The notes beneath the pieces were generated by a model. The model searched no databases. It was not told the origin of the DNA and worked only from the letters and a program-made list of their open reading frames with translations. This document shows positions 2,303 to 37,006 of a DNA stretch of 38,932 nt, one piece after another. The stretch covers positions 1 through 38,932 of the forward strand of contig JAGBLE010000007.1 in the NCBI GenBank assembly GCA_017635565.1. Reading direction: 5' to 3'. The translations under genes were made by a program, and so were the position numbers. Numbering within the stretch: the first letter of the stretch is position 1; every line of letters starts with the position of its first letter. This stretch comes from Bacilli bacterium. GTDB taxonomy: Bacteria; Bacillota_I; Bacilli_A; RFN20; CAG-826.

Positions 2303-2315
2303 ATATTTGCCAAAT

Positions 2316-6848: not shown

Positions 6849-6856
6849 GTTTTTGA

Positions 6857-8851
6857 ATGAAAAATTTAGATAATTCACACAAATTTGAGATAGTTTCGAA
6901 GTTTAAACCAACTGGTGATCAGCCAACCGCAATCAATCATTTGGTTGATGGACTAAACTCTGGAAAAAGACTTCAAGTCCTTTTAGGTGTAACAGGAACC
7001 GGTAAAACTTTTACGATGGCAAATATCATTGAAAGAGCACAACGTCCTGCTCTTATTTTGGTTCATAACAAAACTTTAGCGGGCCAACTTTATTCAGAAT
7101 TTAAAGAACTATTTCCAAATAACCGCGTTGAATATTTTGTTTCCAATTTCGACTTTTATCAACCTGAAGCTTATATTCCAAAAAGCGACACATATATCGA
7201 TAAAACCGCATTAATGAATGATGAGATTGAAATGCTCAGAACAAGCGCTATTAATTCAGTGTTAGAAAGAAGAGATACGATTGTTGTTGCTTCTGTTGCC
7301 TCAATATATGGCTTAACTGATCCAGATGAATATCGCAATCTTGTTTTCGATATTCGTGTTGGCGAAGAAATTAACCGACAATCGTTTTATAAGGCCCTTG
7401 TTGATGCACAGTATAAAAGAAACAATTTAGATACTCCACCAGGCTCATTCAGAGTAAGAGGAGATATTATTGAAATTGTTCCTGCTAATATGAACGAAAA
7501 CAATGTCATTCGCATTGATACTTTTGGAGATGAAATCGAAAAAATATATGAAGTTAACTCATTAACGGGAGAAATTCTTCACTCATATTATACTTATCCA
7601 ATTTTTCCTGCTTATGATCACGCTTCAACCAGAGAAAGAATTAAAGATGCGTGTGTTACCATCAAAGAAGAATTAAAGGAAAGATTAGAATTCTTTAAAG
7701 CCAATGAAAAATATCTTGAAGCAGAAAGATTGTCATTAAGAACAAATCAAGATATCGAAAACATGGAAGAATTTGGAATGTGCCCTGGAATTGAAAACTA
7801 TTCAAGACACATCGATAAACGTAAACCAGGACAACGCCCATTTTGTTTAATTGACTACTTCCCAGATGATTTTATTATGTTCATTGATGAATCACATGTC
7901 TCAATTCCTCAAATAAGAGGTATGTATAACGGAGACAGAAGCAGAAAACAAACACTTGTTGAATATGGCTTTAGACTTCCTAGTGCTTTAGATAATAGGC
8001 CACTTAATTTTGAAGAATTTGAATCTTTAATGCCTCAAACAATTTGCACTTCTGCAACGCCAGGTGATTATGAACTCAATAACACTGATAACGAATTAGC
8101 ACAGCAAATCATTCGTCCTACAGGTTTACTTGATCCTGTGGTTGAAGTTAGACCAATTAGAGGTCAAATAGATGACATCCTACACGAAATCAAAGAAAGA
8201 ATTGATAAAAATGAAAGAATTATGATTGTCACTTTGACAGTCAAAATGGCGGAAGATTTAACTCAATATCTTAAAGAACGCGGAATAAAAGTAGTCCACT
8301 TGCATCACGAAGTTAAGACTCTTGAAAGAACCGAAATTATTTATCAACTCCGCAAAGGAAAATATGATGTTTTGGTTGGTATCAATCTTTTAAGAGAAGG
8401 TTTGGATATTCCAGAAGTTTCATTAGTGGTTATTCTTGATGCTGATAAGGAAGGATTCTTAAGAAGCACAAGAAGCTTAATTCAAGTTATTGGTAGAGCC
8501 AGTAGAAATGCGCAAGGCAAAGTTATTATGTACGCCGATAACATGACCGATTCAATGAAAGAAGCGATTTCAGAAACAAATAGAAGAAGAAGTGTCCAAA
8601 TAGCGTATAACGATGAATATGGAATAGTTCCTAAAACAATCATTAAAGAAATTCGAGCACCAATTCACAATTCTGATGACGATGTTTCAGAGATGATTAA
8701 AGTTACAAAGAAAGGCTCAAGAAGCGAAATATTAGCCAGAATAAAAGAATTAGAAAAACAAATGAAACAAGCCGCTAAAGAATTTGATTTTGAAAGAGCA
8801 GCAGAATTACGAGATATAATCCTCGAAATGAAAGCGGATATTAATCAATAA
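6857..8851 (+). CDS. uvrB: UvrB, nucleotide excision repair helicase subunit
   Basis: UvrB verifies DNA damage delivered by UvrA and recruits UvrC. The product has 664 residues, the usual length. Seen: GDQPTAI Q-motif, Walker A GVTGTGKT at about 44-51, the beta-hairpin region at about 95-106, DESH box near 345, SATPG, helicase motif [11 protein letters not shown], and a C-terminal UVR domain ([12 protein letters not shown]) that contacts UvrC. The beta-hairpin that clamps DNA reads [11 protein letters not shown], whereas E. coli has SYYDYYQPEAY, so three of the four aromatic Tyr are replaced (N, F, F). The start ATG 6857 has only a weak upstream purine run. uvrA and uvrC are not in the window. 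Confidence 0.98.
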
Positions 8852-8879
8852 TCGTTATTTAAGAAATAATGATTGATTA
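8844..8879. other. AT-rich imperfect hairpin at uvrB stop
   Basis: AATCAAT..CGTTATTT and AAATAATGATTGATT pair with a three-base bulge and one wobble around the loop AAG. The stem contains the uvrB stop. No U-tract follows, so it is more likely an RNA-end or stabilising structure than a strong terminator. Confidence 0.35.
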
Positions 8880-8926
8880 AGACATCTAATTTAATTAAAA
8901 TAAACAACAGCGAAAGGAGAAAATGT

Positions 8927-9160
8927 ATGCTCGCTTGGTATGACTGGGTATTACTTGCTACTAGTATAATCATTATCGTTTTGTGCTTATTACAAGGCGG
9001 TAAATCTGAAGGTGCTTCTGGTGCTATTACTGGTGGTGGACTTAACGTTTTCGTTAAAACAAAAGAAAGAGGCGCTGAAAAAGTTATTTCCATTTTAACT
9101 CTTGTCATGGCGATCATCTTCTTCATCCTAGCAATCCTTATTAAAATTCTTAATGGATAA
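8927..9160 (+). CDS. secG: SecG, preprotein translocase subunit
   Basis: SecG is the small auxiliary subunit of SecYEG. The 77-residue product has the expected two membrane helices (about residues 4-22 and 52-73) joined by a Gly/Ser-rich loop with GGKSEGASGAITGGG, a SecG hallmark. The start ATG 8927 follows AAAGGAGA (8913-8920). An ATG four bases earlier is out of frame and ends after a few codons. A longer in-frame version starting at 8873 has no ribosome binding site and would add a charged stretch without homology, so I reject it. A terminator follows directly. Confidence 0.95.
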   Translation: MLAWYDWVLLATSIIIIVLCLLQGGKSEGASGAITGGGLNVFVKTKERGAEKVISILTLVMAIIFFILAILIKILNG

Positions 9161-19093: not shown

Positions 19094-19142
19094 TGATATT
19101 AATATATCACAATTGATTCACTAAAATGACTAATGAGAACTT

Positions 19143-19173
19143 AGTTAACAAGTTAACCAATATTAAATATAAT
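19143..19173 (+). promoter_or_regulatory. lacI promoter with overlapping operator
   Basis: TTAACA (19145-19150), 17 bases, then TATAAT (19168-19173) form a near-consensus promoter. The dyad AGTTAACAAGTTAACC (19143-19158) covers the -35. The -10 ends 6 bases before the ATG at 19180, so transcription should start at or next to the start codon. The same dyad, with one difference, precedes the GH28-like gene. Confidence 0.75.
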
Positions 19174-19179
19174 AATCTC

Positions 19180-20196
19180 ATGTCAAAAAAAGTTACCATT
19201 TACGATATTGCTAAATATTTAAACGTTACTCCCGCGACTGTATCATACGCTTTGAATAATGTTTCAAAAGTATCAGAAGAAACACGTAAAAAAATACTTG
19301 AAACCGCTAAAGAGCTCGGATATTCAAGAGATTATAACGCTGTTAGTCTTTCAACAGGAAAGACACATTTAATGGCGTTATTTTTACCTTTTGAAGATAT
19401 TTCAAAACCATTTTTAGAAAATCCATTTTATGGAGAATTCATCGGTGGATTTGAAAAACAAATCATGAAACAAGATTATGACTTATTAGTGCAACCTGCT
19501 CTTCAAGAAAAAGATATGCTTCCATGGTTAAGAAAAAGAGGAGTGGATGCAATCGCGGTTATTGGAACATATCCAAAATATTTCATAAAAGCCTTTAAAA
19601 CATATAATAAACCTGTTGTGTTAGTCGATTCATACGGAGAAAAAGATAATGAATTTAACACTGTATTAACCGCAGACACTGATGGAGTTTTTGAATCAAC
19701 CTCATATTTAATTAATAATGGCCACAAACGAATTGCTTTTGTATCTGGATATAAAGAAAGTTCCCTTCTTGATATGAGAAGATTTCAAGGATATGTTTCC
19801 GCTTTAAAAGAACATGACATTCCTTTAGATGAATCGATCATATTTGAAAGAGGAATATCCATTGAAGAAGGATTAAAGCTTACTGATGAATTAATTAAAA
19901 AAGATATCACAGGCATTATATGCGCGGCAGATACGCTCGCCATAGGAATTATTAATGGTCTAAAACTCAAAGGAAAAAGAATTCCAGATGATTATTCAGT
20001 TATCGGTTTTGATGATATCCAATCCGCTAAATATATATCCCCAAGTTTAACAACCATTAGACAAGACATTACTGAAAAAGGTCGCCTTGCCGCCAAACTA
20101 TTATTAGATGATTTAAGAAATAACGAAAACAATCATAAGCAAATTTCACTAGCGCCAGAATTAATAATTCGTGATTCTGTCAAAAAAATTAGTTAA
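19180..20196 (+). CDS. LacI/GalR family transcriptional regulator
   Basis: A 338-residue regulator with an N-terminal helix-turn-helix (VTIYDIAKYLNVTPATVSYALNN, residues 4-27 approximately), a hinge with NAVSLSTGKT, and a periplasmic-binding-protein-like sensor domain (VIGFDDIQSAKYISPSLTTI near residue 275). The start at 19180 (MSKKVTIYDIAKYL) is chosen because it gives the exact family N-terminus; an earlier in-frame ATG at 19126 would translate the promoter and operator. No Shine-Dalgarno precedes it, and the promoter sits so close that the mRNA is probably leaderless. It likely represses itself and the downstream glycan locus until a sugar ligand, perhaps a pectin-derived one, binds. Confidence 0.93.
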   Translation: MSKKVTIYDIAKYLNVTPATVSYALNNVSKVSEETRKKILETAKELGYSRDYNAVSLSTGKTHLMALFLPFEDISKPFLENPFYGEFIGGFEKQIMKQDYDLLVQPALQEKDMLPWLRKRGVDAIAVIGTYPKYFIKAFKTYNKPVVLVDSYGEKDNEFNTVLTADTDGVFESTSYLINNGHKRIAFVSGYKESSLLDMRRFQGYVSALKEHDIPLDESIIFERGISIEEGLKLTDELIKKDITGIICAADTLAIGIINGLKLKGKRIPDDYSVIGFDDIQSAKYISPSLTTIRQDITEKGRLAAKLLLDDLRNNENNHKQISLAPELIIRDSVKKIS

Positions 20197-20308: not shown

Positions 20309-20334
20309 ATAAGCGTAAATAGGACGTGAAAATT

Positions 20335-22374
20335 ATGAGAACAAAACATCTTTTTGGTTTGTCGGCACTTCTTTTTGCTATGTCAGTAGGAGCTTGTACC
20401 CCTTCAAGTAGCGAGCAATCAAAAGAAACTGACAACATTTACTATAACGAAGAAAATTTCGTCACATCGAATTCACCAGTGGAAGAAACGAAAATTGTTA
20501 CTTACGATGGACCTTCTTTATTAAAAACTAGTGAACAAGTTTCAGTGAAAGTAAATGGAAAAGATTTATTTGTTTACGAAACAAGAGTAAATGATAGAAG
20601 AAAATTTTCTTGGGAAACACCAACAAGAAAAGTTCCCCTTGTTAATTTTGATTTTGAAGGAAAAGTTCATATCGAAGTTAAGGTAAATACAGAAGAAGAA
20701 ATTAAGACCGCTAAAGTATCTCCTCTTGTTTATGGAATTAAACCAGTCATTTCTGGTAAAACCATTTCTTTTGATCTTGAATATAATGATAATTACGTCC
20801 TTGAATATAATGATAATTCAGATACATCAGTCCATATTTTCGCTAACGCATTAGAAACAGAAGTCATGAGTAAAGAAGAGGCTGATGCCGATCCTAAAAA
20901 AATATATGTTGGACCAGGCGTATATAACGCAGGGGCTTTTCCTCTTGAAGATGGTTCTGAAATATATTTAGCCGGTGGGGCTTATGTTTATGGTCAATTC
21001 TCTGGAGAAGATTTCAATAATATCAAAATATATGGAAGAGGAATCGTTTCTGGAGAAATTTATAACCGCAGAAGTGAAAGTGAATACACTCTTCCAGTCG
21101 TTTTAAGAAATTGTTCAAATATTACAATTAATGATGTTGTTTTCTTAGACCCAGCTGGATGGGCAATCACTTTATATAAATGCGAAAATGCAACATTAAA
21201 TAATGTCAAAATCATCACTGCGAGACAAAACGGAGATGGCATTTCCGTTCAAAGTAGTAAACACGTAAGAGTTAACAAAGGTTTTGTCAGAACTTGGGAC
21301 GATTCTCTTGTCGTCAAAAATAGCGATAGAGGCACCACCGATGATGTCATCTTTGATGGAGTCACCGTGTGGACAGATTTAGCCCAATCAATGGAAGTTG
21401 GATATGAAACTTATGGGGCAACCATGAATGACATTACATTCCAAAACATCACTGTCGTTCATAATTTCCACAAAGCATTAATTTCAATGCATAACTGTGA
21501 TGATGCAGTCATTACAAATGTCACATATAAAAACATCACTCTCGAAGATGGACATATGCTTGGAGATGATAGAGTCGATGGAGAAAATGATTTCTTAATT
21601 GATTTCACAATCGCTTATAACATTGACTGGACAAAATCAGAAGGTGACCGTGGTTCAATTGATGGAGTTAATATTGAAAACATTAACGTTTATCAAATGG
21701 AAGACACAATTTCATGCCGTTTCTTAGGCGAAAGTACAACTTCAATGATTAAAAACGTCACCATTAAAGGTGTCAAAATAAACGGAAATAATATCTCTTC
21801 TTTGCAAGCTTTAGATGTTGCGATGAACGATTATACCGAAAACATCACTTATCAAAGTTCTTCAAAAGTTTTAGGAGCAATTATTACTCTTCCATATAAC
21901 ATTGATTCCCTTACCGATAAAGTAACATTCACAAATAAAGAAGGCGTCTTCCAAGAAGGAATGCTCGTTCCATCTTTTGCTTATCAACAAGGTGGGCTTC
22001 CATATATCGGAGTTAAAGGAAATATTGAAACTCAAGTTTCTTCTTCTCACGGAGCAGGAACAAAAACAAACACTCCTGTTGATGATGGAAGCGGAGAATA
22101 TTCAGCGTCTGGATATAATGTTTCTTCCTTAACTAATGGAAGTAGCACTGATCTCTGGATGAGCAAAGAATATAAAGGCGAAGAAAACGAATTCATCGGA
22201 ATTACCATTGAAACACCAGAAATTCCAACAATAGGAAAGATTAGACTTAAGGGTAATGAAGAAAACGCATATTATCTCACTTATTCCATTGAAATTTGGG
22301 CGAGAAAGAATAAAACAGATGGAACAATGAATGAACGTTACACCAGATTAAGTGGCAACTCCTTATGTTTTTGA
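20335..22374 (+). CDS. GH28-like beta-helix lipoprotein, C-terminally truncated
   Basis: A predicted surface polysaccharide hydrolase. Seen: lipoprotein signal with lipobox VGAC near residue 20, a beta-sandwich N-terminal region, the cap sequence IYVGPGVYNAGAFPL, and a right-handed beta-helix. NGDGIS near residue 299 and WDDSLVVK near residue 322 match the GH28 pattern NTD...DD with identical spacing. The later GH28 motifs GHG and RIK are not found; SMEVGYE and HNFHKA occupy this region. The C-terminus begins an F5/8-type carbohydrate-binding domain but stops after about 85 residues (RYTRLSG), followed by a few unrelated residues to TGA at 22372. The DNA from about 22352 belongs to another gene, so the gene is cut. 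Start ATG 20335 is preferred to GTG 20326 because of spacing from AGGA. Confidence 0.85.
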   Translation: MRTKHLFGLSALLFAMSVGACTPSSSEQSKETDNIYYNEENFVTSNSPVEETKIVTYDGPSLLKTSEQVSVKVNGKDLFVYETRVNDRRKFSWETPTRKVPLVNFDFEGKVHIEVKVNTEEEIKTAKVSPLVYGIKPVISGKTISFDLEYNDNYVLEYNDNSDTSVHIFANALETEVMSKEEADADPKKIYVGPGVYNAGAFPLEDGSEIYLAGGAYVYGQFSGEDFNNIKIYGRGIVSGEIYNRRSESEYTLPVVLRNCSNITINDVVFLDPAGWAITLYKCENATLNNVKIITARQNGDGISVQSSKHVRVNKGFVRTWDDSLVVKNSDRGTTDDVIFDGVTVWTDLAQSMEVGYETYGATMNDITFQNITVVHNFHKALISMHNCDDAVITNVTYKNITLEDGHMLGDDRVDGENDFLIDFTIAYNIDWTKSEGDRGSIDGVNIENINVYQMEDTISCRFLGESTTSMIKNVTIKGVKINGNNISSLQALDVAMNDYTENITYQSSSKVLGAIITLPYNIDSLTDKVTFTNKEGVFQEGMLVPSFAYQQGGLPYIGVKGNIETQVSSSHGAGTKTNTPVDDGSGEYSASGYNVSSLTNGSSTDLWMSKEYKGEENEFIGITIETPEIPTIGKIRLKGNEENAYYLTYSIEIWARKNKTDGTMNERYTRLSGNSLCF

Positions 22375-22795
22375 TTCAAACACCACTGATGACCAAGTGA
22401 GAGGAATCCTTAAATTCTTTGATTATATTGGTCGATCACCAACTACAAACAAAACAAATATCGATGCGATTAAAGAAGGATATGAAGTTGCCCAAAACAA
22501 AAATCAACCAATCCTTCCTAAAATCATGCCTTGGAAAAACGAAGACTTTTTAGAGGTCGCAAAAGAACTCGAAAATCAATATATCTCAGTCGATATGGAT
22601 TACTTCAGCCCATTTTTCGATACAGTAATTGAAAATCAACACGCTGAAGTTCCTGTTGCGGCTCAAAAGATGTATGAATTTTTGGATACTGCGATTCAAA
22701 ACGTTTTCCAAAATCCAGATACCGCTAATGTGAATGCAATTTTAACAACTGCAAACGCAAACTTCCAAAAATATTTAACTGATAATAATCTTTAA
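22352..22795 (+). pseudogene. C-terminal fragment of an ABC sugar-binding protein
   Basis: Only the last 145 or so residues of an extracellular solute-binding protein remain. The frame opens next to an in-frame TAA and has no signal peptide, no Shine-Dalgarno and no N-terminal lobe. Visible family features are the C-terminal lobe pattern YFSPFFDTVIENQHAEVPVA and the end NVNAILTTANANFQKYL, typical of binding proteins of the carbohydrate uptake (CUT1) type, which run to about 420-450 residues. It starts inside the cut end of the GH28-like gene in another frame. Position just before a MalF-like permease fits the standard order. A non-functional remnant unless reads show a different junction. Confidence 0.75.
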
Positions 22796-22800
22796 TATTT

Positions 22801-23157
22801 ATGTACTTACGAAGAAAACAAAAATCTGAAGCCTTAAAAGGAAAAATAAAAAAGAATGTTCTCGCTTGGGCAATTATTCTCCCATCCATTCTTTTATTTG
22901 TTTTCTTTGTTTGGTACCCAATTTTATTCAATATTGGATTAAGTTTCTTCAAAGATAATACTTTCTCTGAATTTGTTTGGTTTGAGAACTACAAAGCAAT
23001 CTTTGAAGATATTAAGTTCATCACTGCTTTAAAAAATACATTCCTATATATTTTCTGGTCATTAATCATTGGATTTTTAGTTCCACTTTTCATCGGCTTC
23101 TTACTTTCAGAAACCGTTCACGCGAGAATATTCATCAAACGAAATGGTGTCTCTTAA
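22801..23157 (+). pseudogene. N-terminal fragment of a MalF-type ABC sugar permease
   Basis: The 118-residue product has the typical N-terminus of CUT1 permeases: a Lys/Arg-rich head, a first membrane helix (AIILPSILLFVFFVWYPI), the NYKAIFED extracytoplasmic loop and a second helix (FWSLIIGFLVPLFIGFLLS). The full family is about 290-300 residues with six helices and a C-terminal EAA loop that docks the ATPase; all of that is missing. Homology stops near IFIK, and five unrelated residues precede TAA. The downstream ORF starts 14 bases earlier in another frame. No MalG-type second permease is present. Spacing from the preceding fragment is 5 bases. Confidence 0.8.
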
Positions 23158-25285
23158 TGTTTTGGGTTTATATGACCAATATCAAGACAAATGGAGAGAA
23201 TCAATAAATCTTCCTAATCCTTTTTCTATTCATACTTATATTGACAATAGAGAACAAAATGTTTTAATTAATCCACCGCTTAATCATAAAATTTCTCTTA
23301 ATATTTTTGACGCAACTTTTTCTCGAGAAACTGAATTTGAAGACTCAATTATTAAATCAACAAGATTTGTTTCAAGTGATGAAAGAAATTTATTAGTGAA
23401 TAGATATGTCGTTACTTCTAAAAAAGAAGCAACAATAGATATCAATCTCAAAGTGGATTTAGACATTTATGAAATTAATGGTCCTCATTTTGTGTCAAAA
23501 GAGATTGAAATAAAAGATAACGTTATTCATTTCCAAGGTGTAAGTAACGAAAATAAAAAAATCAATACTTATACTTTGTATAAATCAAATGTTCCTCTTA
23601 TTTCTGATAATAACGGATTAAAAATTGAAAAAACTGTTAAAAAAGATGAAGAGATAATTATCGAAATATATTCATATATCGGAGAAAATCTTTCTTCTCT
23701 TCTTCATTTAGCAAATCTTGGATTTAAAGTTTTATTAGAAAATCACAAAAAGAAGTTCAATAAAGAATGGAAAATTTCAAGAGTGGAAATTGATGATGAA
23801 TCCGCTCAATTTGAAATCGATTATTCAATTTATCATCTTTTGATTTTAATGGATCCCGATAGTGTCAACTCCATCCCTGCTCGAGGATTGAGTGGACAAA
23901 CATATAAAGGGGCAATATTCTGGGATGTCTTTTTAAAGGCCGCTGAAGGGCTTAAACTCAAACCGAGTGAATGTTTAGTCATCGAAGATGCTTTCGCTGG
24001 AATTGACGCCGGAAAAGCTGGTCAATTCATCTCTATTGGAATTGGAGACGCTGCTAAATACGAAAAAGCAGATTATAAAATTGAAAAACTCAGTGAATTA
24101 GTCAAATTAGTGGAAGAAATAAATAACAAGCTTTCTCACAAAATTGACATCGAACATTTAGTAAAAATATACCCTAATAGTGATATTAAAGCAGTTAATG
24201 ATTTTAATCTCACCATTGATAACGAAGAATTCGTTGTTTTTGTCGGTCCTTCTGGATGTGGTAAATCAACCGTTTTAAGAATGATTGCAGGTCTTGAAGA
24301 AATTACCGAAGGAGAAATATATCTCGATGGAAGATTATTGAATAATTTAGATCCAAAAGATCGTAATATCGCGATGGTCTTCCAAAACTACGCTTTATAC
24401 CCTCATTTAAGCGTAAGAAAAAACATCGCTTTCCCTCTTGCTAACGAGAAAATACCTTTCAAATATTTCTTTAATTTCAAATGGAGAAAAGAAAGAAGGG
24501 AAAGAATAAATCAAATCGTCGAAGATACCGCTGCTAAAATTAATTTAAGCGAATATTTAGATAGGAAACCCGCTAATCTTAGTGGAGGACAACGTCAAAG
24601 AGTGGCTCTTGGTAGAGCGATTGTTCGTAATCCAAAAGTCTTCCTTTTAGATGAACCATTATCAAATTTAGATGCCAAAATGAGAGTCCAAATGAGAAGC
24701 GAAATCACTCGCTTACACCAACAATTAAAAACTGTTTTCATCTATGTTACTCATGACCAAGTAGAAGCGATGACAATGGGAACTAAAATTGTTGTTCTTA
24801 AAAGCGGAGTTATTCAACAAGTCGCATCTCCTGAAGAATTATTCATTAATCCAGTAAATATGTTTGTTGCTGGTTTTATCGGCACTCCTCAAATGAATTT
24901 CATTAAAGGAATAGTTCATAAAAAAGGAGATAAATATCTTTTAGATATGCTCGGTGTAAATTCAATTGAATTGCCAAGTGAAAGAATGAAGACTTTTAAT
25001 GAAGAATTCCTTGATAAAGAAGTTATTATTGGTGTTAGACCTCGCGCCATATCGGTTAAAGGCGATTTGGAATATGTCGAACAAGGATATACCGCTAAAA
25101 TATCTTTATTTGAACAATTAGGAGAAGAAACAAATGTCTATGCTTCTATTGAAGGCCACGACAAAGATTTAATCATCGCCACTACTGGATTAGGAAGATT
25201 TGAAAACGAAGAAGAAATTAATATTTCATTTAACTTCAAAGATATATGCCTATTTGATCCGATTTCGGAAAATAAATTACTATGA
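23144..25285 (+). CDS. Chimeric ORF: GH65 fragment - beta-phosphoglucomutase fragment - MsmK-type ATPase
   Basis: One open frame holds three unrelated pieces. Residues about 3-261 are the N-terminal beta-sandwich and the RGLSGQTYKGAIFWD motif of GH65 disaccharide phosphorylases, missing the N-terminal first 50 or so residues and the whole catalytic core with its general-acid Glu. Residues about 262-330 are the C-terminal end of a HAD-type beta-phosphoglucomutase (VFLKAAEGL, VIEDAFAGIDAGKAG). Residues about 331-713 are a complete MsmK/MsmX-type sugar ABC ATPase: Walker A GPSGCGKST at 368-376, signature LSGGQRQR, Walker B FLLDEP, H-loop VTHDQ and the C-terminal regulatory domain. No start codon remains for the ATPase; L331-S-H-K stands where M-S-x-K is expected. 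The GH65 and mutase parts cannot work; the ATPase might, if the long N-terminus is tolerated. Confidence 0.8.
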   Translation: MVSLNVLGLYDQYQDKWRESINLPNPFSIHTYIDNREQNVLINPPLNHKISLNIFDATFSRETEFEDSIIKSTRFVSSDERNLLVNRYVVTSKKEATIDINLKVDLDIYEINGPHFVSKEIEIKDNVIHFQGVSNENKKINTYTLYKSNVPLISDNNGLKIEKTVKKDEEIIIEIYSYIGENLSSLLHLANLGFKVLLENHKKKFNKEWKISRVEIDDESAQFEIDYSIYHLLILMDPDSVNSIPARGLSGQTYKGAIFWDVFLKAAEGLKLKPSECLVIEDAFAGIDAGKAGQFISIGIGDAAKYEKADYKIEKLSELVKLVEEINNKLSHKIDIEHLVKIYPNSDIKAVNDFNLTIDNEEFVVFVGPSGCGKSTVLRMIAGLEEITEGEIYLDGRLLNNLDPKDRNIAMVFQNYALYPHLSVRKNIAFPLANEKIPFKYFFNFKWRKERRERINQIVEDTAAKINLSEYLDRKPANLSGGQRQRVALGRAIVRNPKVFLLDEPLSNLDAKMRVQMRSEITRLHQQLKTVFIYVTHDQVEAMTMGTKIVVLKSGVIQQVASPEELFINPVNMFVAGFIGTPQMNFIKGIVHKKGDKYLLDMLGVNSIELPSERMKTFNEEFLDKEVIIGVRPRAISVKGDLEYVEQGYTAKISLFEQLGEETNVYASIEGHDKDLIIATTGLGRFENEEEINISFNFKDICLFDPISENKLL

Positions 25286-26931
25286 GAAAACATAAATTTC
25301 TTCCTTTAATGTTGCTTCTTACATTTTCTATTTTTTCTTGTGGATTAAATCCTCAAAATGTTCCAACAGAAAAAACATATGAAAAAGATGAAGATGGTTT
25401 TTATATTTTGGAAGAAGATTATTTTTCTTATAAAGAAGATAGTAGTGATACTAGAAATAAAAGCGCGGTTTATATTCCTAAATTACAATCTACAATTACT
25501 CAAAATAGCCAAATGAGATTATTTGTTGGTGATAAGCAAGTGCCAATTTATAATGTCTTGGCTAATAATTCACATTCTTGGACCCCAAATAATTATTCAA
25601 GAATAAATTGTGGATACGCTTCAATTGGATTAAAAGGAAGAGTGACTCTTAAGTTACAAACTTCTTTTAAAATTTTTGAAGATGCAAAAGTTACTCCGCT
25701 AAGTAGAGGCGTCAAACAAACAATCGATAACGAACGAAGAGTGCTTACTTTTGAAATTAATCAAACAGGTCAATACGTTGTCGAATTTAGAGGTGGAAGA
25801 ACTCTTCATTTGTTCGTTGAAGATATTGATATTATGAGTGAAAACACGCAAGGAACGATGTATTTTGCTCCAGGCGTCCACAATAAAGGAACAGTTTATT
25901 TAAATAGCAATGCATCTGTTTATTTAGCTCCTGGTTCCTTTGTATATGGTAAATTCATCGCTAATAACGCTTCTAATATAACTATCTCTGGAGCGGGATA
26001 TATTGATGGAAGTAAATATGATAGAGACGCTAGTAAAGGAACAGTAACTGTTCCAATTGAATTTAATAATTGCTCAAATATCACTCTTAAAGATTTTTCA
26101 TGTATCGATCCTGCTGGTTGGACATTTAATATGTATTTCTGTAATGAAGTAAATATTGATAATGTCAAAATTATTTCAAGTAGAAGTAATGGTGATGGAA
26201 TATCAATTCAATCATGTCAAAACGTTAATGTTACTAATTCTTTTATCAGGTCTTGGGATGATTCACTAGTGGTTAAAAATTATCCACAGTGGAGTAATCG
26301 CAATATCGAAGGAACAACAAGGTCAATTCATTTTAATAACTGTATATTATGGACTGGCTTAGCGCAGTCAATGGAAGTTGGATATGAAACAGTTGGACAA
26401 ATAATGGATGATATATCTTTTGAAAACATTACTGTCCTTCATAATTTCCATAAAGCTGTTTTCTCAATTCATAATGGCAATAACGCAAACATCACAAACG
26501 TGAGGTTTGAAAATATTACCGTTGAAGGCGCTAATATGGGAAGAGGAGATGGAAGCCGCTATTTAGTGGACATCCAAAACCTTCATTCATCAACGTGGTC
26601 TGACCAACATAAAATAACTGGCCTAGGTTCAATTGATGAAGTTACTTTAAAGAATATTAAAGTCCTTTCAGGCATAAAGAACCCCGCTATTTTATTAGAA
26701 GGATGTTTAGAAAATAGAGATGGTTTTCCTCACGAAGCTCACACTATTTCAAATGTAAAATTTATTGATTTTTATCTATATGATAAGGTAATTGATTCTA
26801 CATATGAAAACTACATCACAAACGAATATGTATCAAATGTTTCATTCTCTACTACTGGTAAAGAAATAACTGGAGCAATACTTGATTATAAAGATGTCTC
26901 GGATTATGGAAATAATTTGATATTTAAATAG
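25282..26931 (+). CDS. GH28-like beta-helix lipoprotein (intact paralogue)
   Basis: A 549-residue lipoprotein paralogous to the one at 20335. Seen: signal peptide with lipobox IFSC near residue 20, an N-terminal beta domain, YFAPGVHNKGTVYLNS as helix cap, NGDGIS near residue 303 and WDDSLVVKN near residue 325 with GH28 spacing, then LAQSMEVGYET and VLHNFHKAVFSIHN. As in the paralogue, GHG and RIK are absent. There is no F5/8 domain, and the end (DYGNNLIFK) looks natural before a terminator. Start overlaps the ATPase stop by 4 bases (ATGA), so the two are translationally coupled. The substrate is probably a plant glycan such as a pectin side chain; other beta-helix hydrolase activities remain possible. 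Confidence 0.87.
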   Translation: MRKHKFLPLMLLLTFSIFSCGLNPQNVPTEKTYEKDEDGFYILEEDYFSYKEDSSDTRNKSAVYIPKLQSTITQNSQMRLFVGDKQVPIYNVLANNSHSWTPNNYSRINCGYASIGLKGRVTLKLQTSFKIFEDAKVTPLSRGVKQTIDNERRVLTFEINQTGQYVVEFRGGRTLHLFVEDIDIMSENTQGTMYFAPGVHNKGTVYLNSNASVYLAPGSFVYGKFIANNASNITISGAGYIDGSKYDRDASKGTVTVPIEFNNCSNITLKDFSCIDPAGWTFNMYFCNEVNIDNVKIISSRSNGDGISIQSCQNVNVTNSFIRSWDDSLVVKNYPQWSNRNIEGTTRSIHFNNCILWTGLAQSMEVGYETVGQIMDDISFENITVLHNFHKAVFSIHNGNNANITNVRFENITVEGANMGRGDGSRYLVDIQNLHSSTWSDQHKITGLGSIDEVTLKNIKVLSGIKNPAILLEGCLENRDGFPHEAHTISNVKFIDFYLYDKVIDSTYENYITNEYVSNVSFSTTGKEITGAILDYKDVSDYGNNLIFK

Positions 26932-29661: not shown

Positions 29662-29687
29662 AAAAAAAGACCACCTGGTCTTATTTT
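29662..29687 (-). terminator. Terminator after rpiB
   Basis: AGACCA (29668-29673) and TGGTCT (29676-29681) pair with a 2-base loop. On the minus strand a run of seven T (plus-strand A 29662-29668) follows. The stem starts at the rpiB stop codon and ends the prfA-prmC-tsaC-rpiB operon. Confidence 0.8.
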
Positions 29688-30118
29688 TCTAACCCACTGA
29701 TTAGGTCTACTCTAGTTTGATGGCGTCCGCCTTCAAATTCAGTAGATAAAAAGATATCAACTCTTCTAAGAACATCTTCTAAGGCCATAAAGGCTTGTCC
29801 AAACGATATGACGTTAGCGTTATTGTGTTGCCTCATTAGTCTTGCTACATCATCGTTATAAGCAATTCCACATCTAACGCCTTTAACCTTATTAGCGGCT
29901 ATTGCTATTCCTTCTCCAGAAGTACAAACAACCACTCCATAATCGCATTCTTTATTAGAAACTTTTTTAGCAACTTCAGCGCCATAGATTGGATAGTGGC
30001 AACTTTCTTTACTATAAGTCCCAACATCAACTACTTCGTGACCAAGTTTTTCTAAATGCTCTTTAATAGCGTTTTTATATTCAAGTCCACCATGATCACT
30101 ACCAACTGCAATTTTCAT
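29681..30118 (-). CDS. rpiB: RpiB, ribose-5-phosphate isomerase B
   Basis: RpiB interconverts ribose-5-phosphate and ribulose-5-phosphate in the pentose phosphate pathway. The 145-residue protein has the family features GSDHGG (residues 6-11), the catalytic cysteine C65 in VVCTSGEG, and DDVARLMRQHNNANV with the phosphate-binding Arg/His/Asn. It is last in the prfA operon, 5 bases after tsaC, an order known from many Bacillota. The alternative LacAB-type galactose-6-phosphate isomerase is less likely, because LacA/LacB normally occur as a pair. Confidence 0.93.
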   Translation of the reverse strand: MKIAVGSDHGGLEYKNAIKEHLEKLGHEVVDVGTYSKESCHYPIYGAEVAKKVSNKECDYGVVVCTSGEGIAIAANKVKGVRCGIAYNDDVARLMRQHNNANVISFGQAFMALEDVLRRVDIFLSTEFEGGRHQTRVDLISGLEK

Positions 30119-30123
30119 AGCTT

Positions 30124-30723
30124 TTATTTCCTTTCTATAGCCTTTAAAATGTCGGCAAGTTTAATATTGCCTTCTCTATAAATTTTAACTTGTTCTCCAG
30201 TAAGGTCAACTAAAGTTGATGGAACTCCACTTTTTGAATTGCTTTTAAAAACATAAGCGACTTCATCTTTAAAAATATTAATGACTTCATCATAAGTTAA
30301 AGCAGGCTTCTCACCGCTTTTATTAGCGCTAGGAACAAGAAGTGGCTTTCCTAAATAATTAATAAAATCACATAATTCAGGTAAATTAGGGACTCTTATA
30401 CCAATAACCCCTGTTCCATGAGTGACATAAGAAGGAACATTTTCTTTGCTTTTAAGTAAAACGGTTATCTCACCAGGCATAAAAGAATCAATTACTTTTT
30501 GAGCCCTTTCATCAATATAAGCGTATTTAGAAATATCGTTTTTATTACCAAGCATTAAAGTATATGGTTTTTCTTCTGGGCGACATTTAATTCTATTTAA
30601 AAGATTATAGGCATCAAAATCATCGAAATAGACACCAAGCCCCATAACTGTTTCAGTTGGAAACGCAACAACTTGAGAATTATCCAAACACTTTTTTGCT
30701 ATATCAAATTCACTACGCAACAT
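30124..30723 (-). CDS. tsaC: TsaC/YrdC, L-threonylcarbamoyladenylate synthase
   Basis: This enzyme makes threonylcarbamoyl-AMP from threonine, bicarbonate and ATP for the t6A37 modification of tRNAs. Seen: VAFPTETVMGLG (the YrdC start motif), KCRPEEKPYTLM (a KxRxxxKP variant), GTGVIGIRVP, PSANKSGEKP and PSTLVDLTG. The short form (about 199 residues, no C-terminal Sua5 domain) is normal. The start at 30723 follows a GAAGGA ribosome binding site; an earlier in-frame ATG at 30738 lies within that site, so it is less likely. It overlaps prmC by 11 bases. tsaB, tsaD and tsaE are not in the window. Confidence 0.92.
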   Translation of the reverse strand: MLRSEFDIAKKCLDNSQVVAFPTETVMGLGVYFDDFDAYNLLNRIKCRPEEKPYTLMLGNKNDISKYAYIDERAQKVIDSFMPGEITVLLKSKENVPSYVTHGTGVIGIRVPNLPELCDFINYLGKPLLVPSANKSGEKPALTYDEVINIFKDEVAYVFKSNSKSGVPSTLVDLTGEQVKIYREGNIKLADILKAIERK

Positions 30724-31573
30724 AAGTAATTCCTTCATCTTTAACTATATAAAGAAAACGAACTTTTCCATAAATATCTTTTTCAAATTTGTACATAATT
30801 CCTTGGTATTTAGTTTCAAGTATGTGGGTTAGTTCATCTTCCATATCTTCTCCGATTTCAAACGCCAAAAGAAATTTCTCTGACATCATTTGAGAATCAA
30901 TAGCAGTAAAAATTTCTTCATAGTATTTTGTTTTTGGATTTGCGAATAACGCTAAGTGCGGTTCATACTTTAAAGTCATTGGATCAACAGTAGAAGAATC
31001 GCCAATGTATGGAGGATTAGAAATGATGACAGAGACATCACTTTCATCCTTAATTGGCTCAAGCATATCACCAACTCTAAAATCAATTATCACATTATGA
31101 TTTTTTGCGTTTATCTTCGCAATTTTGATGGAATTTTCACTAATATCTGTGCAAATCACGGTTGAATGAGGAAAGTATTCTTTTAAATAAATACCTAATA
31201 TACCTGAACCAGTTCCAATATCGATTATCTTGATTTTTGGTTCTTTTCCAAACATCTTAACAATCATTTTTAAAGTAGCTACTGCAAGTTCTTCAGTTTC
31301 TTGTCTAGGAATTAAAACATCTTTATTAACTACGTAATTTGAATTAATGAAAAAAGCATATCCAAGTACATATTGAAGTGGTTCACCATTAAGAACACGT
31401 GAAACATTTTCATTTATTTGGTCGAGGTTTTTTACCTCTTCATCAAAATGCTTAATAAGGTTAAAAAAATCACTGAAACCACCATCATCTTGGAGGATGG
31501 ACTTTATAGCGGTTCCGTTAAGCAAATTATTTTTCTTTTTATCTAGTTGGAAATATAGTTCACGGTAAGTCAT
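30713..31573 (-). CDS. prmC: PrmC, release factor glutamine methyltransferase
   Basis: PrmC methylates the Gln of the GGQ motif in RF1 and RF2, using S-adenosylmethionine. The 286-residue protein has an N-terminal helical domain, IIDIGTGSGILGIYL (SAM site) near residue 120 and the catalytic NPPYIG near residue 185. It lies 2 bases after the prfA stop and overlaps tsaC. Its substrates RF1 and RF2 are both encoded in this window, at opposite ends. Confidence 0.96.
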   Translation of the reverse strand: MTYRELYFQLDKKKNNLLNGTAIKSILQDDGGFSDFFNLIKHFDEEVKNLDQINENVSRVLNGEPLQYVLGYAFFINSNYVVNKDVLIPRQETEELAVATLKMIVKMFGKEPKIKIIDIGTGSGILGIYLKEYFPHSTVICTDISENSIKIAKINAKNHNVIIDFRVGDMLEPIKDESDVSVIISNPPYIGDSSTVDPMTLKYEPHLALFANPKTKYYEEIFTAIDSQMMSEKFLLAFEIGEDMEDELTHILETKYQGIMYKFEKDIYGKVRFLYIVKDEGITYVA

Positions 31574-31575
31574 TA

Positions 31576-32652
31576 TTAATTCTCACCTGCGATTTTTTGT
31601 GATTGATCGTAATGGATAAGAGCCTCAATTATTTCTTCAAGTTCACCTTCCATAACTCTATCTAATTTTTGAATTGTAAAACCAATTCTATGGTCAGTAA
31701 CACGATTTTGAGGATAGTTATAAGTTCTGATTTTTTCACTTCTCTCGCCAGTACCAATTTTAAGTCTTCTTTCGTTTCCAATTTCTTCTTGTTGTTTTTC
31801 AAGCATTGTGGAATACATTTTCGCTCTAAGCATTTGCATAGCGATTTCACGGTTTTGGATCTGTGATTTTTCGGTTTGGCATGCAACAACAATGCCAGTT
31901 GGAATATGTGTGATACGAACAGCAGATTCAGTCTTATTAACGTTTTGTCCACCTGCTCCTTGAGAATGGTATGTATCAACTTGTAAATCGTTTGGATTAA
32001 TTTCAACATCAATTTCTTCAGCTTCAGGCATAACTAAAACAGTCGCGGTACTTGTGTGAATTCTTCCACTTGCTTCAGTTCTTGGAACTCTTTGAACACG
32101 ATGCGCTCCACTTTCAAATTTAAGTTTAGAATAAACTCTTTTTCCTTTAATCATGAAGGATACTTGAGAAAAACCGCCAGCTTCTGAAGGATATTGATCC
32201 ATCATTTGAATCTTCCATCCTTGTGTTTCAGCGTATCTTGTATACATTCTAAATAAATCGCCAGCGAAAATATTGGCTTCATCTCCACCAGCAGCCCCTC
32301 TAATTTCAACAATGATGTTTTTATCATCATTAGGGTCTTTTGGCAAAAGTAATTGTCTGAGTTCTTCTTCGAGGTCTTCAAGTTCTTTGGTTAATCTTTT
32401 TGCTTCTTCTTTACCCATTTCAGAAAGTTCAGGATCAGAATCATTTCCCATTTCAATTGCGTCATTTAATTCTTCTGTCATTTTTTGATAACGATTAAAA
32501 GCCTCAACTTGAGGTTCTAAGATTGCTCTTTCTTTTGAAATCTCACGAAAGTGTTTGATATCTTTCATTGTTTCTTCATTGAGGAGCTCTTGATCAATCT
32601 CTTCTAATCTTTTGCTTGCGACTGTTAGTCGTTGAAACATACTTTCTTCCAT
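31576..32652 (-). CDS. prfA: Peptide chain release factor 1
   Basis: RF1 ends translation at UAA and UAG. The 358-residue protein shows the usual coiled N-terminal domain, the RF1 codon-recognition loop in the middle, and the catalytic GAGGQNVNK loop near residue 230. GRIHTSTATV and EAEEIDVEI are RF1 hallmarks. The chosen start (MEESMFQRL) has GAGG at 6 bases; a second ATG four codons later (MFQRL) is the main alternative. An extended -10 TGGTATAAT (minus strand, plus 32675-32683) lies about 25 bases upstream. First gene of the prfA-prmC-tsaC-rpiB operon. Confidence 0.97.
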   Translation of the reverse strand: MEESMFQRLTVASKRLEEIDQELLNEETMKDIKHFREISKERAILEPQVEAFNRYQKMTEELNDAIEMGNDSDPELSEMGKEEAKRLTKELEDLEEELRQLLLPKDPNDDKNIIVEIRGAAGGDEANIFAGDLFRMYTRYAETQGWKIQMMDQYPSEAGGFSQVSFMIKGKRVYSKLKFESGAHRVQRVPRTEASGRIHTSTATVLVMPEAEEIDVEINPNDLQVDTYHSQGAGGQNVNKTESAVRITHIPTGIVVACQTEKSQIQNREIAMQMLRAKMYSTMLEKQQEEIGNERRLKIGTGERSEKIRTYNYPQNRVTDHRIGFTIQKLDRVMEGELEEIIEALIHYDQSQKIAGEN

Positions 32653-32785
32653 AAATACCTCGTTTGCCGGTGCAATTATACCATAATATTTATATATTAA
32701 GAAGAAAGAAAAAATAATCGTTAATATTCATATTAATTCTTCAAACTAAACAAACTCTAATGTATACTTAAATGCAGGTAGATTT
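32653..32785. promoter_or_regulatory. Divergent promoter region prfA / dnaX
   Basis: On the minus strand an extended -10 TGGTATAAT (plus 32675-32683) serves prfA; its -35 is weak. On the plus strand TTCAAA (32740-32745), a 17-base spacer and TATACT (32763-32768) serve dnaX, whose ATG lies 17 bases later with an AGGT ribosome binding site. I see no operator dyad. Confidence 0.6.
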
Positions 32786-34480
32786 ATGGCATATAAAGCA
32801 TTATATAGAACATATCGTCCTCAAACTTTTGAAGAAGTTGCTGGACAAGAACATATTGTAAGAACTCTCAAAAACGCATTAGCGACAGGAAAAATCGCTC
32901 ACGCATATCTTTTTGCTGGTCCTAGAGGAACAGGAAAAACAACAATGGCAAAGTTATTTGCTAAAGCTCTTAACTGTGAACACGGTATTGGTTGCCAATG
33001 TAATGAATGCAAAAATTGTGTCGCAATTACAGAAGGCAATCATCCAGATGTTTTAGAACTTGACGCGGCAAGTAATAATGGCGTTGATGAAATTCGTGAT
33101 TTAATTGACAAAGTCAAATATGGAACAATCCTCGGAAAATATAAAGTTTACATTATTGACGAAGTCCATATGCTTTCAACTGGAGCTTTTAACGCTCTCC
33201 TTAAAACACTTGAGGAACCACCAGAACATGTCATTTTCATTTTAGCGACAACTGAACCTCATAAAATTCTTCCGACCATTCTTTCAAGATGTCAAAGATA
33301 TGACTTTACTAAGGTAAGTGAACGAGATATCAAAGAAAGAATCAAAGCAATTTTGCTAAATGAAGGCGTTGAATATAACGAGGAAGCGGTAGAACTTGTT
33401 GTTAATCTTGCTGATGGAGGAATGAGAGACGCTCTTTCGATTTTAGAAAAAGTTTTAGCGTTCTCTGGCAATTCCTTAAATGTGAACGATATTTTAGAAA
33501 TCTTTGCTCTTGAAAGTAAAGAGGAGAAAATTCAGCTCATCAACTCAATCATCAATCATGATATGAATGATGTTTTAGCGAGATTAAATAACTACATTAC
33601 AAAAGGCACCGATATTAAAAGATTAACAGAGGACTTATTACTCATCTTTAAAGATATTGTCGTTTTTAATTCAGCAAGCAACGAATTATATCTTGAAATA
33701 TTGTCTGAAAGTGAAGCGTTAGAATTAACAAGAAATATCCCTACCGAAACTGCACTTAAGATGATTGATATTCTTATGAATACAGTGAAGGATTATAAAA
33801 ATGTCACTTCAATTAATCCGGTATTCGAAATATCTCTTATTAAGATGACTTCTATGGAAGATAGACCAACATTTAAACCAGCGCAAGAAGCACCAAAATA
33901 TATTGAAAAACCTATAAGAGAGCCTGTTAAACCAGTCGTTCAAGAAGCAAAACCACAAGAAGTAGTTATTCCAAAAGCTGAACCAAAGCAAGATGAGTCA
34001 ACTATAAATGTTCCATTCGATTCAGATATTAAAATAGTCGATGATGTTATATATCTTAAGGATGCAGAACAAGAAGATACATTCGATATAAATGATGACT
34101 TAATGGTTAACGTTATGGCGGTTTCAACAAAAGAAGCAAAACAAGAACTCACTGGTGGATGGTCAAATATTAAAAAATTATCCACTCATCCACTTGTTGG
34201 TAAAGCTGCGACATTATTAATCGATGGAAGACCATTAGTGGCATCCAAAAAATTTGTCATCTTAGCCTATGAAATGCCTAAACTTGCTGAAAAAGTTAAT
34301 TTAAAAGAAAATCAAGCAGAACTACAAACAGTGTTGCAACATATTTTCCACAGGAAAATGTTTGTTTATGCGGTTAGTAGGAATCGTTCTGTTGATTTAC
34401 AAACTTTATATATGAATCTTAAACAGATTGGAAGATTACCAAAACCTGGTGATGTCAACTTAGAATTTATCGGAGAATAA
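32786..34480 (+). CDS. dnaX: DnaX, DNA polymerase III subunit gamma/tau
   Basis: The clamp-loader ATPase that also couples polymerases at the fork. Seen: Walker A GPRGTGKT near residue 45, a four-Cys zinc module (C-E-H-G-I-G-C-Q-C-N-E-C-K-N-C) near residues 64-79, DEVHML (Walker B), the SRC motif with LSRCQRYDF near residue 165, then domain III, and a Pro/Glu/Lys/Gln-rich linker from about residue 370. The C-terminal domain (VGKAATLLIDGRPLV) is the tau part that contacts the polymerase. Length is 564 residues, normal for tau in Bacillota. No clear A-AAA-AAG slip site was seen, so only the full-length form is expected. Confidence 0.96.
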   Translation: MAYKALYRTYRPQTFEEVAGQEHIVRTLKNALATGKIAHAYLFAGPRGTGKTTMAKLFAKALNCEHGIGCQCNECKNCVAITEGNHPDVLELDAASNNGVDEIRDLIDKVKYGTILGKYKVYIIDEVHMLSTGAFNALLKTLEEPPEHVIFILATTEPHKILPTILSRCQRYDFTKVSERDIKERIKAILLNEGVEYNEEAVELVVNLADGGMRDALSILEKVLAFSGNSLNVNDILEIFALESKEEKIQLINSIINHDMNDVLARLNNYITKGTDIKRLTEDLLLIFKDIVVFNSASNELYLEILSESEALELTRNIPTETALKMIDILMNTVKDYKNVTSINPVFEISLIKMTSMEDRPTFKPAQEAPKYIEKPIREPVKPVVQEAKPQEVVIPKAEPKQDESTINVPFDSDIKIVDDVIYLKDAEQEDTFDINDDLMVNVMAVSTKEAKQELTGGWSNIKKLSTHPLVGKAATLLIDGRPLVASKKFVILAYEMPKLAEKVNLKENQAELQTVLQHIFHRKMFVYAVSRNRSVDLQTLYMNLKQIGRLPKPGDVNLEFIGE

Positions 34481-34484
34481 AATT

Positions 34485-34784
34485 ATGAACATGCAACAAA
34501 TGATGATCCAAGCACAAAAAATGCAAAGAGAACTTCAAAAAGCACAAGACGCTCTTGCAAAAAAAGAATTCACAATTAATAAAGCAGGACTTGTGAATAT
34601 TGTTGTTTTTGGAAATAAAACCATAAAAGAAATCAAAATCGAAGAAGATGGATTTGATCCAGACAATAAAGAAATGATTGAAGAATTAATTGTCAGTGGA
34701 TTAAATGAATTGTTTGAACAAATAACCGCTGAAAGCGATGCTATACAAGAAAGAATCACAGGAAGAACCGGATTAGGTTTTTAA
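34485..34784 (+). CDS. ybaB: YbaB/EbfC nucleoid-associated protein
   Basis: A small DNA-binding protein that acts as a dimer on the nucleoid. The 99-residue product has the family start MNMQQMMIQAQKMQRELQKAQ (written here as MNMQQMMIQAQKMQREL), a central beta-hairpin (NIVVFGNKTIKEIKIE) and a C-terminal helix with TGRTGLGF, close to the YbaB GLP-type end. It sits 4 bases after dnaX and 2 bases before recR, the conserved dnaX-ybaB-recR trio. Confidence 0.94.
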   Translation: MNMQQMMIQAQKMQRELQKAQDALAKKEFTINKAGLVNIVVFGNKTIKEIKIEEDGFDPDNKEMIEELIVSGLNELFEQITAESDAIQERITGRTGLGF

Positions 34785-34786
34785 TC

Positions 34787-35383
34787 ATGGAAAGACTTAA
34801 GTCACTCAATAACTTAATTGAAAACTTATATAAACTTCCAGGAGTTGGAAAGAAAAGTGCTGAAAGGATGGCGTATGCCATGCTTGATTTTCCTAGTGAA
34901 GATTTAGAAAGTATCGCTAAAGCGTTGACTGACTTAAAAGCCAAAATTCATTTCTGTCCAATATGCGGAATGATTACTGATATCGATGGCTGCTATATTT
35001 GTGATGATAAAAATAGGGATGAAACCACCATCATGGTTGTCTCTTATCCAAAAGATGTTATGTCAATTGAAAAAAGTAACTCATATAAAGGCCAATATCA
35101 TGTCTTAAATGGAGAATTATCAATTTCCAAGGGAATGAATACTGATTCTCTTAATATCAATTCTCTTCTCAAAAGACTCGATGATGGACATTACGAAGAA
35201 GTTATTTTAGCCACCAACCCAACAGTTGATGGAGAAACAACTTCGATGTATTTAGCAAAATTACTTGAAAAATATAATATTCGTGTCACCCGTTTAGCGT
35301 ATGGATTACAGATAGGGGGTAACCTCGATTATGTGGATCCATTGACTTTATCAAAAGCGCTTGAAGGTCGACACAAAATATAG
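34787..35383 (+). CDS. recR: RecR, recombination mediator
   Basis: RecR works with RecO/RecF to load RecA on gaps. Seen in 198 residues: an N-terminal helix-hairpin-helix LPGVGKKSAERMAY, a C4 zinc finger CPICG...CYICDD near residues 57-73, the Toprim domain beginning IMVVSYPKDVMSIE and ATNPTVDGETTSMYL, and a C-terminal GLQIGGNLDYVDP, all canonical. Its TAG stop overlaps the GGGAGG ribosome binding site of tmk. Confidence 0.97.
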   Translation: MERLKSLNNLIENLYKLPGVGKKSAERMAYAMLDFPSEDLESIAKALTDLKAKIHFCPICGMITDIDGCYICDDKNRDETTIMVVSYPKDVMSIEKSNSYKGQYHVLNGELSISKGMNTDSLNINSLLKRLDDGHYEEVILATNPTVDGETTSMYLAKLLEKYNIRVTRLAYGLQIGGNLDYVDPLTLSKALEGRHKI

Positions 35384-35393
35384 GGAGGCTTAT

Positions 35394-36014
35394 ATGTTTA
35401 TTACATTAGAAGGACCAGAAGGATCAGGAAAAACGACCGCGGTCGAGGCTGCAGTTAAAGCTCTTGAAGCAAAAGGTTATGAAATTGTTCGCACAAGAGA
35501 ACCAGGCGGAACTCCAATTGCAGAACAAATTCGTAATGTTATCTTGGATAAAGCAAATACCAAAATGGATCCAAGAACAGAAGCTCTCCTATATGCAGCA
35601 AGTAGACGACAACACCTCGTTGAAAAAGTATGGCCTGCTCTTAAAGAAGGAAAAATTGTCATTTGTGACCGATATTTAGATTCCTCTTTAGCCTATCAAG
35701 GTGGCGCAAGAGGATTAGGTGTTGATAATGTTTTGAACATTAATTTATTCGCTACTGAAAATACATGGCCAGATTTAACTCTTCTCTTTGATATCAAACC
35801 AGAAATCGGTTTACAAAGAATCGCCAGTAACGCTAATAGAGAAGTTAATAGATTAGATTTAGAAAAAATCGAATTCCACAATAAAGTAAGAGATACTTTC
35901 CTCTCTTTAGCAAAAAAATATCCAGATCGATATGTTATTATCGATGCTTCAATGGATAGGGAATCTGTTGCTAAAGCAACGTTAGATGCAATAATGAATA
36001 GACTATGCAAATAG
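35394..36014 (+). CDS. tmk: Thymidylate kinase
   Basis: Phosphorylates dTMP to dTDP. The 206-residue protein has P-loop GPEGSGKTT near residues 7-15, the DR(Y/H)-type motif VICDRYLDSSLAYQG near residue 90, and TREPGG near residue 37. The start ATG 35394 has GGGAGG (35383-35388) at 5 bases. A TTG-initiated version beginning at 35361 would overlap recR and lacks a ribosome binding site. The 3' end overlaps holB by 10 bases. Confidence 0.96.
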   Translation: MFITLEGPEGSGKTTAVEAAVKALEAKGYEIVRTREPGGTPIAEQIRNVILDKANTKMDPRTEALLYAASRRQHLVEKVWPALKEGKIVICDRYLDSSLAYQGGARGLGVDNVLNINLFATENTWPDLTLLFDIKPEIGLQRIASNANREVNRLDLEKIEFHNKVRDTFLSLAKKYPDRYVIIDASMDRESVAKATLDAIMNRLCK

Positions 36015-36997
36015 GGAAATATTTAAAAGAAAATCAACCAATCATATATCAAACATTTACCAATGCATTTAAGACACACACTCTTTCGCATGCTTATTTA
36101 TTGACCGGTAATCCTGGAACTCCACTGTATGAAGTTGCAAAATATCTCGCAAAATCAATTCTTTGTGATGATCCTTCCCCGTTAGCGTGTGAAAACTGTA
36201 TAACTTGTCTAAGAATCGATAGTGATAATTATCCAGACATCATCAAACTTGATGGAAGCAAAGAATCAATTAAAAAAGAACATATCCTAAATGTTGAAAA
36301 TAGATTTGAGAAAACTGCTTTTGAGTCAAAAGGAATAATGATTTATATTGTTAACCTAGTTGAAAATATGACTGTTGAGGCCGTCAATTCAATGTTAAAG
36401 TTCTTAGAGGAACCTGAAAGCGAAATATATGCTTTCTTAACTACTAACAATGTTAACAATGTTCTTCCAACAATTGTCAGCCGTTGCCAAGTGTTGCCTC
36501 TTAAAAGTATTCCTCGAGAAAGAGTAATTGATGAAGCCTTAAGCTACATGGTTGAACAGAGCGATGCAGAATTATTATCATATTTTTATAACGACGCTGA
36601 ACTCATCTATGATTTTTTGCAAAATGAAGAAGAATCCGATAATTATCAAGAAGCCAAAAAAGCTCTCAATGGATTATTAAATGAATTAAATAATGGCGAT
36701 TATCGTGATGTGATATATTATTCACAATCAACGATTATCCCAATGATTAAAACTAAACCAGAATTAAGATTTTTTATCGATTTATTATCTGAAGTTTATG
36801 AAGACATTTTAAACCTTAAATCAAATCGAGAAATCAGCCTAAAAAGTTATCGTGATATTTTGCTTAATTTAGTCGAAAAATTACCTCATATCGAAGACTC
36901 ATTAATCGAAATACTTAAAACAAGAAATGTTATAAATCTCAATGTCAATATTGGTCTATTAATTGACCATCTCATCATAAAAATTGTAAAGGAATAA
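36005..36997 (+). CDS. holB: DNA polymerase III subunit delta'
   Basis: The clamp-loader delta' subunit, partner of DnaX. In 330 residues: HAYLLTGNPGTPLYEVAKYL in place of a working P-loop, a CENCITCL zinc-like pair near residue 60, SMLKFLEEPESEIYAFLTT and IVSRCQVLPL (SRC motif), all typical. The C-terminal domain from about residue 190 is helical. It overlaps tmk and precedes ricT by 9 bases, keeping the Bacillota order tmk-holB-yaaT. Confidence 0.93.
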   Translation: MQIGKYLKENQPIIYQTFTNAFKTHTLSHAYLLTGNPGTPLYEVAKYLAKSILCDDPSPLACENCITCLRIDSDNYPDIIKLDGSKESIKKEHILNVENRFEKTAFESKGIMIYIVNLVENMTVEAVNSMLKFLEEPESEIYAFLTTNNVNNVLPTIVSRCQVLPLKSIPRERVIDEALSYMVEQSDAELLSYFYNDAELIYDFLQNEEESDNYQEAKKALNGLLNELNNGDYRDVIYYSQSTIIPMIKTKPELRFFIDLLSEVYEDILNLKSNREISLKSYRDILLNLVEKLPHIEDSLIEILKTRNVINLNVNIGLLIDHLIIKIVKE

Positions 36998-37006
36998 TAA
37001 GAAAAT

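Follow-up and report, generated by a model that had tools for sequence, protein, structure and literature searches.

The operon for carbohydrate uptake in the window, the whole 38,932-base contig analysed here, consists of colinear gene remnants separated by three junctions at which about 10 kb is absent in comparison with relatives, and it was probably, though by no means certainly, disabled by a real and recent deletion. The remnants keep the order and orientation of the intact operon and lack the parts between them. A fourth apparent break, between the β-phosphoglucomutase (bPGM) and the ABC ATPase that follows it, is an old conserved fusion outside the damage, to judge from its alignment with relatives. 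The contig belongs to a 1.07-Mb draft assembly of 31 contigs with an estimated completeness of 73%.

The preliminary description of this DNA suggested comparison with intact loci in relatives, and such loci are present in one fixed form. Family relatives carry, in order, a LacI-family regulator, a GH28 enzyme, a protein of ~916 aa, a solute-binding protein, permease 1, permease 2, two GH65 proteins, a bPGM-ATPase protein and a second GH28. This order, including LacI, is identical in G069, G137, G166, G205 and G094, and it is the same, as far as contigs reach, in G252, G253, G258, G276, G155, G189 and G131, so that at least 10 genomes hold a syntenic counterpart intact to that extent. Relatives were also examined for this set of fragments in this arrangement, and none carries it. 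A fragment search of the 196 genomes of the family finds the binding-protein piece in 15 (the window's own and 14 relatives) and the GH65 piece in 16, with zero matches in other genomes of the window's own genus. G069, the nearest relative that is intact at the operon, is the reference for most fragment comparisons.

In these relatives the first GH28 includes one or more F5/8 type C domains (at 634–752 in G069), the solute-binding protein is ~480 aa long (477 aa in G069), and both permeases are BPD_transp_1 proteins. The GPDEYH stretch lies in the second of the two GH65 proteins, past the window's break, and the bPGM-ATPase protein has 600 aa with HAD/bPGM and ABC ATPase domains. The 916-aa protein (L059:2408-5158), which is without a Pfam match, has a lipoprotein-like signal at its N-terminus and repeated segments, and occupies the same position in intact loci at ~30–40% identity. 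The intact operon is best explained as a system that trims a plant-wall oligosaccharide outside the cell and takes it up. As to the predicted substrate, GH28 suggests pectin-derived sugars, while GH65 and bPGM suggest an α-glucoside; "pectin-sugar", taken from GH28, is a guess. Importer operons of the GH65-bPGM-CUT1 type serve α-glucosides and likewise bring together a binding protein, two permeases, GH65, bPGM and an ATPase. Unlike them, the operon described here has two flanking secreted GH28 enzymes, a large protein without a Pfam match and two GH65 paralogues.

Table 1. Genes, gene remnants and junctions of the operon in the window.
Feature	Position	Strand	Description
LacI-family regulator	19126..20196	+	Intact; operon's first gene in relatives; Pfam LacI, Peripla_BP_3
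First GH28	20326..22355	+	Rhamnogalacturonidase/polygalacturonase-like; lipoprotein-type signal; Pfam PF00295
Junction 1, GH28 to binding protein	~22355 (22350..22360)		Out of frame; '...YTRLSG' to 'TPYVFD...'
Solute-binding protein	22358..22795	+	C-terminal 30%; matches residues 335-474 of 477 in G069 at 71% identity
Permease 1	22801..23127	+	N-terminal third; matches residues 1-109 of 306 in G069 at 74% identity
Junction 2, permease 1 to GH65	~23125 (23122..23128)		Out of frame; '...LLSETVHAR' to 'EYSSNEMVSLN...'
Second GH65 gene, fragment	23126..23926	+	N-terminal domain and first ~40 catalytic-domain positions
Junction 3, GH65 to bPGM	23926/23927		In frame; '...GAIFWD' to 'VFLKAAEG...'
bPGM	23927..24136	+	C-terminal third; positions 148-187 of TIGR01990
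MsmX/UgpC-type ABC ATPase	24137..25285	+	Intact; natively fused to bPGM; ABC_tran, OB_MalK
Second GH28	25282..26931	+	Intact; operon's last gene; Pfam PF00295

The features of the window are listed in Table 1. The regulator shares 63% identity with its positional counterpart in G069, and G137, G166, G094 and G205 also have one there. The first GH28 corresponds to residues 1–569 of the 769-aa G069 reading and retains its catalytic domain, while the F5/8 type C part at its C-terminus is cut off by junction 1. For the GH65 catalytic domain the Pfam match covers only positions 2–41 of 371, and the HAD domain is matched at its C-terminus only; the FDLDGV nucleophile loop of bPGM is absent from the window. 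The ATPase is 81% identical to that of G069 in an alignment that crosses the bPGM-ATPase fusion point, and the second GH28 is 64% identical over 46–575 of 575 residues.

Four breaks inside conserved domains had been described, and the gaps against relatives together with the partial Pfam domains uphold three of them. The first, placed earlier at 22352, lies at ~22355, where relatives have 4.2–4.6 kb between the joined parts: the absent stretch measures 4164–4567 bp in five relatives and holds the end of GH28, the ~916-aa gene and the N-terminus of the binding protein. The second, earlier at 23144, falls at ~23125; permease 1 ends after residue ~109 of 306, and the sequence picks up ~36 residues into the second GH65, leaving out about 3.9 kb (3859–3912 bp in five relatives) with the rest of permease 1, permease 2, the first GH65 and the start of the second. 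The third, given as 23927, is confirmed at 23926/23927, with about 1.6 kb missing (1593–1619 bp in five relatives) and bPGM picking up at residue 148–149 of 600. All the losses that had been listed, namely the binding-protein N-terminus, most of permease 1, permease 2, the GH65 core and the mutase N-terminus, are seen against relatives, and two more were not on that list, the ~916-aa protein and a second complete GH65 gene. Because junction 3 keeps the frame, positions 23144 to 25285 form one open frame, which encodes a GH65-bPGM-ATPase chimera of 713 aa.

The mutase/ATPase joint at ~24131 is not a break, and it was rejected as a fourth junction in favour of a native conserved fusion. From residue 261 to its end, the 713-aa frame aligns unbroken with single open frames of relatives, running across 24131 from bPGM into the ATPase, and this continuity holds in every relative that has the operon. 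The fusion lies at 24100–24160 in the window and at L059:12845-14647 in a relative. A bPGM and an MsmX/UgpC-type ATPase share one stop-free frame, from residue 1 to about 600, in 15 genomes of 10 genera and three families. Full-length fusions come from 13 additional family members, spread over eight genera, and from two more families of the class. The N-terminal 188 residues of the relatives' protein score 232.6 bits against TIGR01990, whose curated cut-off is 189.4. Both the FDLDGV loop and the Walker A motif GPSGCGKS are conserved in the relatives' fusion, and the linker is short and alignable. In NCBIfam the ATPase half is matched best by the UgpC subfamily model, and it matches the MsmX structure 6yir at 9e-106.

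Each half of the fusion protein has known counterparts. The ATPase half closely matches the multi-sugar importer ATPases MsmX and MsmK (6yir; S. suis MsmK, PMC4519317), but in contrast to these it is a C-terminal half, with bPGM as the N-terminal one. The relatives' N-terminal half is like bPGM (TIGR01990; L. lactis bPGM 1lvh) and keeps FDLDGV; unlike the L. lactis enzyme it has an ATPase fused on, and the window retains its last third only. A limited literature search found no report of a bPGM-ATPase fusion. In a Fastidiosipila genome (L140:9173-12112) these pathway genes are fused in another way: a 979-aa frame encodes GH65 and then the mutase, and a separate ATPase overlaps it by 4 bases. 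Long open frames of ATPase homologues were considered as other mutase fusions and, where checked, were not, the extension being C-terminal.

The preliminary description held that serial deletion or a collapsed assembly would both give the pattern; deletion relative to the intact operon is shown for three junctions, and collapse on repeats is not supported. The longest word common to the paired breakpoint flanks, taken as 60 bp from relatives, is 6–8 bp. Possible microhomology amounts to 0–3 bp per junction, as read codon by codon in alignment with relatives in place of the window species' own undeleted sequence. The breaks are thus nearly blunt and not at repeats, and repeat-mediated collapse was rejected. 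Any deletion would have removed blocks of about 4.4, 3.9 and 1.6 kb from an intact operon, presumably through illegitimate recombination with almost no homology, either successively or in one complex event, and in the dominant strain or in one strain of the population. A mixture in which one strain has the junctions and the assembler took its path would be a variant of this deletion. A search of 19 genomes of the genus gave no Ku gene, which leaves Ku-dependent end joining out as an explanation of the blunt joints.

The fragments also bear on the age of the junctions. Stops, frameshifts and extra divergence are expected only in old remnants, and a recent deletion would show none. The 1560 nt of leftover coding sequence contain zero stops and zero frameshifts, and the identities of the remnants to relatives are no lower than those among relatives, which indicates that the deletions are recent or artefactual. 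In a simple neutral simulation that assumes AT-biased mutation and one indel for every ten substitutions, sequence at 3% divergence would stay free of stops with a probability of 0.06, and at 5% with one of 0.01. All three deletions, if real, are therefore younger than roughly 3% neutral divergence, and the loss would be recent enough for the leftovers not to have decayed. Eroding fragments in reducing genomes (Rickettsia and M. leprae pseudogenes; PMC2374718) are likewise colinear remnants of a dispensable operon. Unlike them, the window remnants are without stops or frameshifts, have three joints in 1.6 kb and are known from an assembly alone.

The same operon is independently eroded in a second genome. 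G059, which belongs to another genus and is listed as 100% complete in about 10 contigs, carries it on the minus strand at L242:10751-12740 (G059:C3). There, LacI residues 19–184, from the first half of the gene and with a 1-bp frameshift, are joined into bPGM at about residue 90, and everything between is gone; the ATPase half is intact and the second GH28 is also lost. This independent erosion with real decay makes the loss in the window more credible, though it does not prove the three joints.

An assembly artefact, in which the cell keeps the whole operon and short stretches of it were put together with the sequence between them left out, is a substantial possibility that falls short of being probable. 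It could arise through scaffolding with gaps removed, chimeric reads, or a consensus over a poorly covered and strain-mixed region. It would fit a draft of this completeness, joints as near to blunt as those of pieces set end to end, and fragments that show neither decay nor excess divergence; moreover, the draft of G079 has contig breaks in the same GH65 gene, and the left block of the contig is inverted relative to those congeners that could be compared. Against it, there are no repeats on which a graph assembler could collapse, and the gaps of 1.6–4.5 kb exceed the reach of ordinary paired ends, which do not bridge such distances. N runs are absent from the assembly stretches sampled. A comparison of 376 kb of the assembly with 735 kb of a congener gives 76 orthologue-like genes, of which 74 are full-length and without any break like those in the operon; the two flagged as truncations proved to be matches to ATPase paralogues. 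With neither N runs nor a genuine truncation among the sampled genes, the assembly is not generally broken. The missing pieces, searched as a 1365-aa concatenate, are not found on other contigs, where only paralogues of 22–30% identity appear, although 27% of the genome is absent. Real deletion, for its part, is supported by missing lengths that are consistent across five relatives and by the parallel erosion in G059. What weighs against it is the tight time window implied by three kilobase-scale losses around 1.6 kb of undecayed sequence, the incompleteness of the draft, the lack of a Ku gene in the genomes of the genus that were searched, and the single deletion, not three, in G059.

Whatever caused the other two breaks, the 713-aa frame might be a new functional GH65-bPGM-ATPase fusion under selection, as the in-frame joint at junction 3, the open frame and the conserved ATPase domain would permit. 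This is very improbable: GH65 and bPGM both lack their catalytic parts, a joint falls in frame with a one-in-three chance, and the architecture is absent from all relatives.

Several features of contig ends were observed alongside the operon. Window positions 1–9157 (comFA-secA-prfB-uvrB) are inverted relative to 29684–38756 (prfA-dnaX-rsmI) when compared with congeners, and no inverted repeat that could account for this was found. In several congeners the genes at 146 and 29684 are direct neighbours, the former after the latter, which puts the contig's left end at the ancestral joint. The right end, window 38895–38932, reads MSYSHFTIEERI, which we take to resemble the start of an IS30-type transposase; this could explain the contig break. 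In G079, contigs C55 (L060 end) and C1 (L062) end side by side within the GH65 gene with ~6 bases in common. Contig ends in the sampled contigs share no terminal k-mers from which the assembler could be inferred.

As it stands in the window, the operon lacks the N-terminus and signal peptide of the binding protein, both complete permeases, the GH65 cores and the bPGM nucleophile loop, and from the functions of these families neither import nor phosphorolysis of its substrate can work from this locus. The regulator and the two GH28 enzymes, predicted to be secreted, could still be made, and so, perhaps, could the ATPase, at the tail of the 713-aa chimera. The chimeric frame starts at 23144, before the permease remnant ends at 23157, and this overlap would allow translational coupling. 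It is conceivable, if rather unlikely, that the bPGM-ATPase fusion is bifunctional and ties import to phosphorolytic catabolism, with an ATPase that also energises other importers and was hence kept when the operon was lost, once in the window and once in G059.

If the junctions are real, they capture a sugar operon in the middle of its loss, with the external enzymes and the ATPase kept while import and phosphorolysis are gone. If they are artefactual, the locus is a warning that colinear fragments of genes may stand on a single draft contig even where repeats and N runs are lacking. In both cases, any metabolic prediction for the operon's substrate from this genome is unsafe. Operon decay is of an ordinary kind. 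Of more interest is the bPGM-ATPase fusion conserved over three families, in which the joining of an importer ATPase with a metabolic enzyme can be put to the test.
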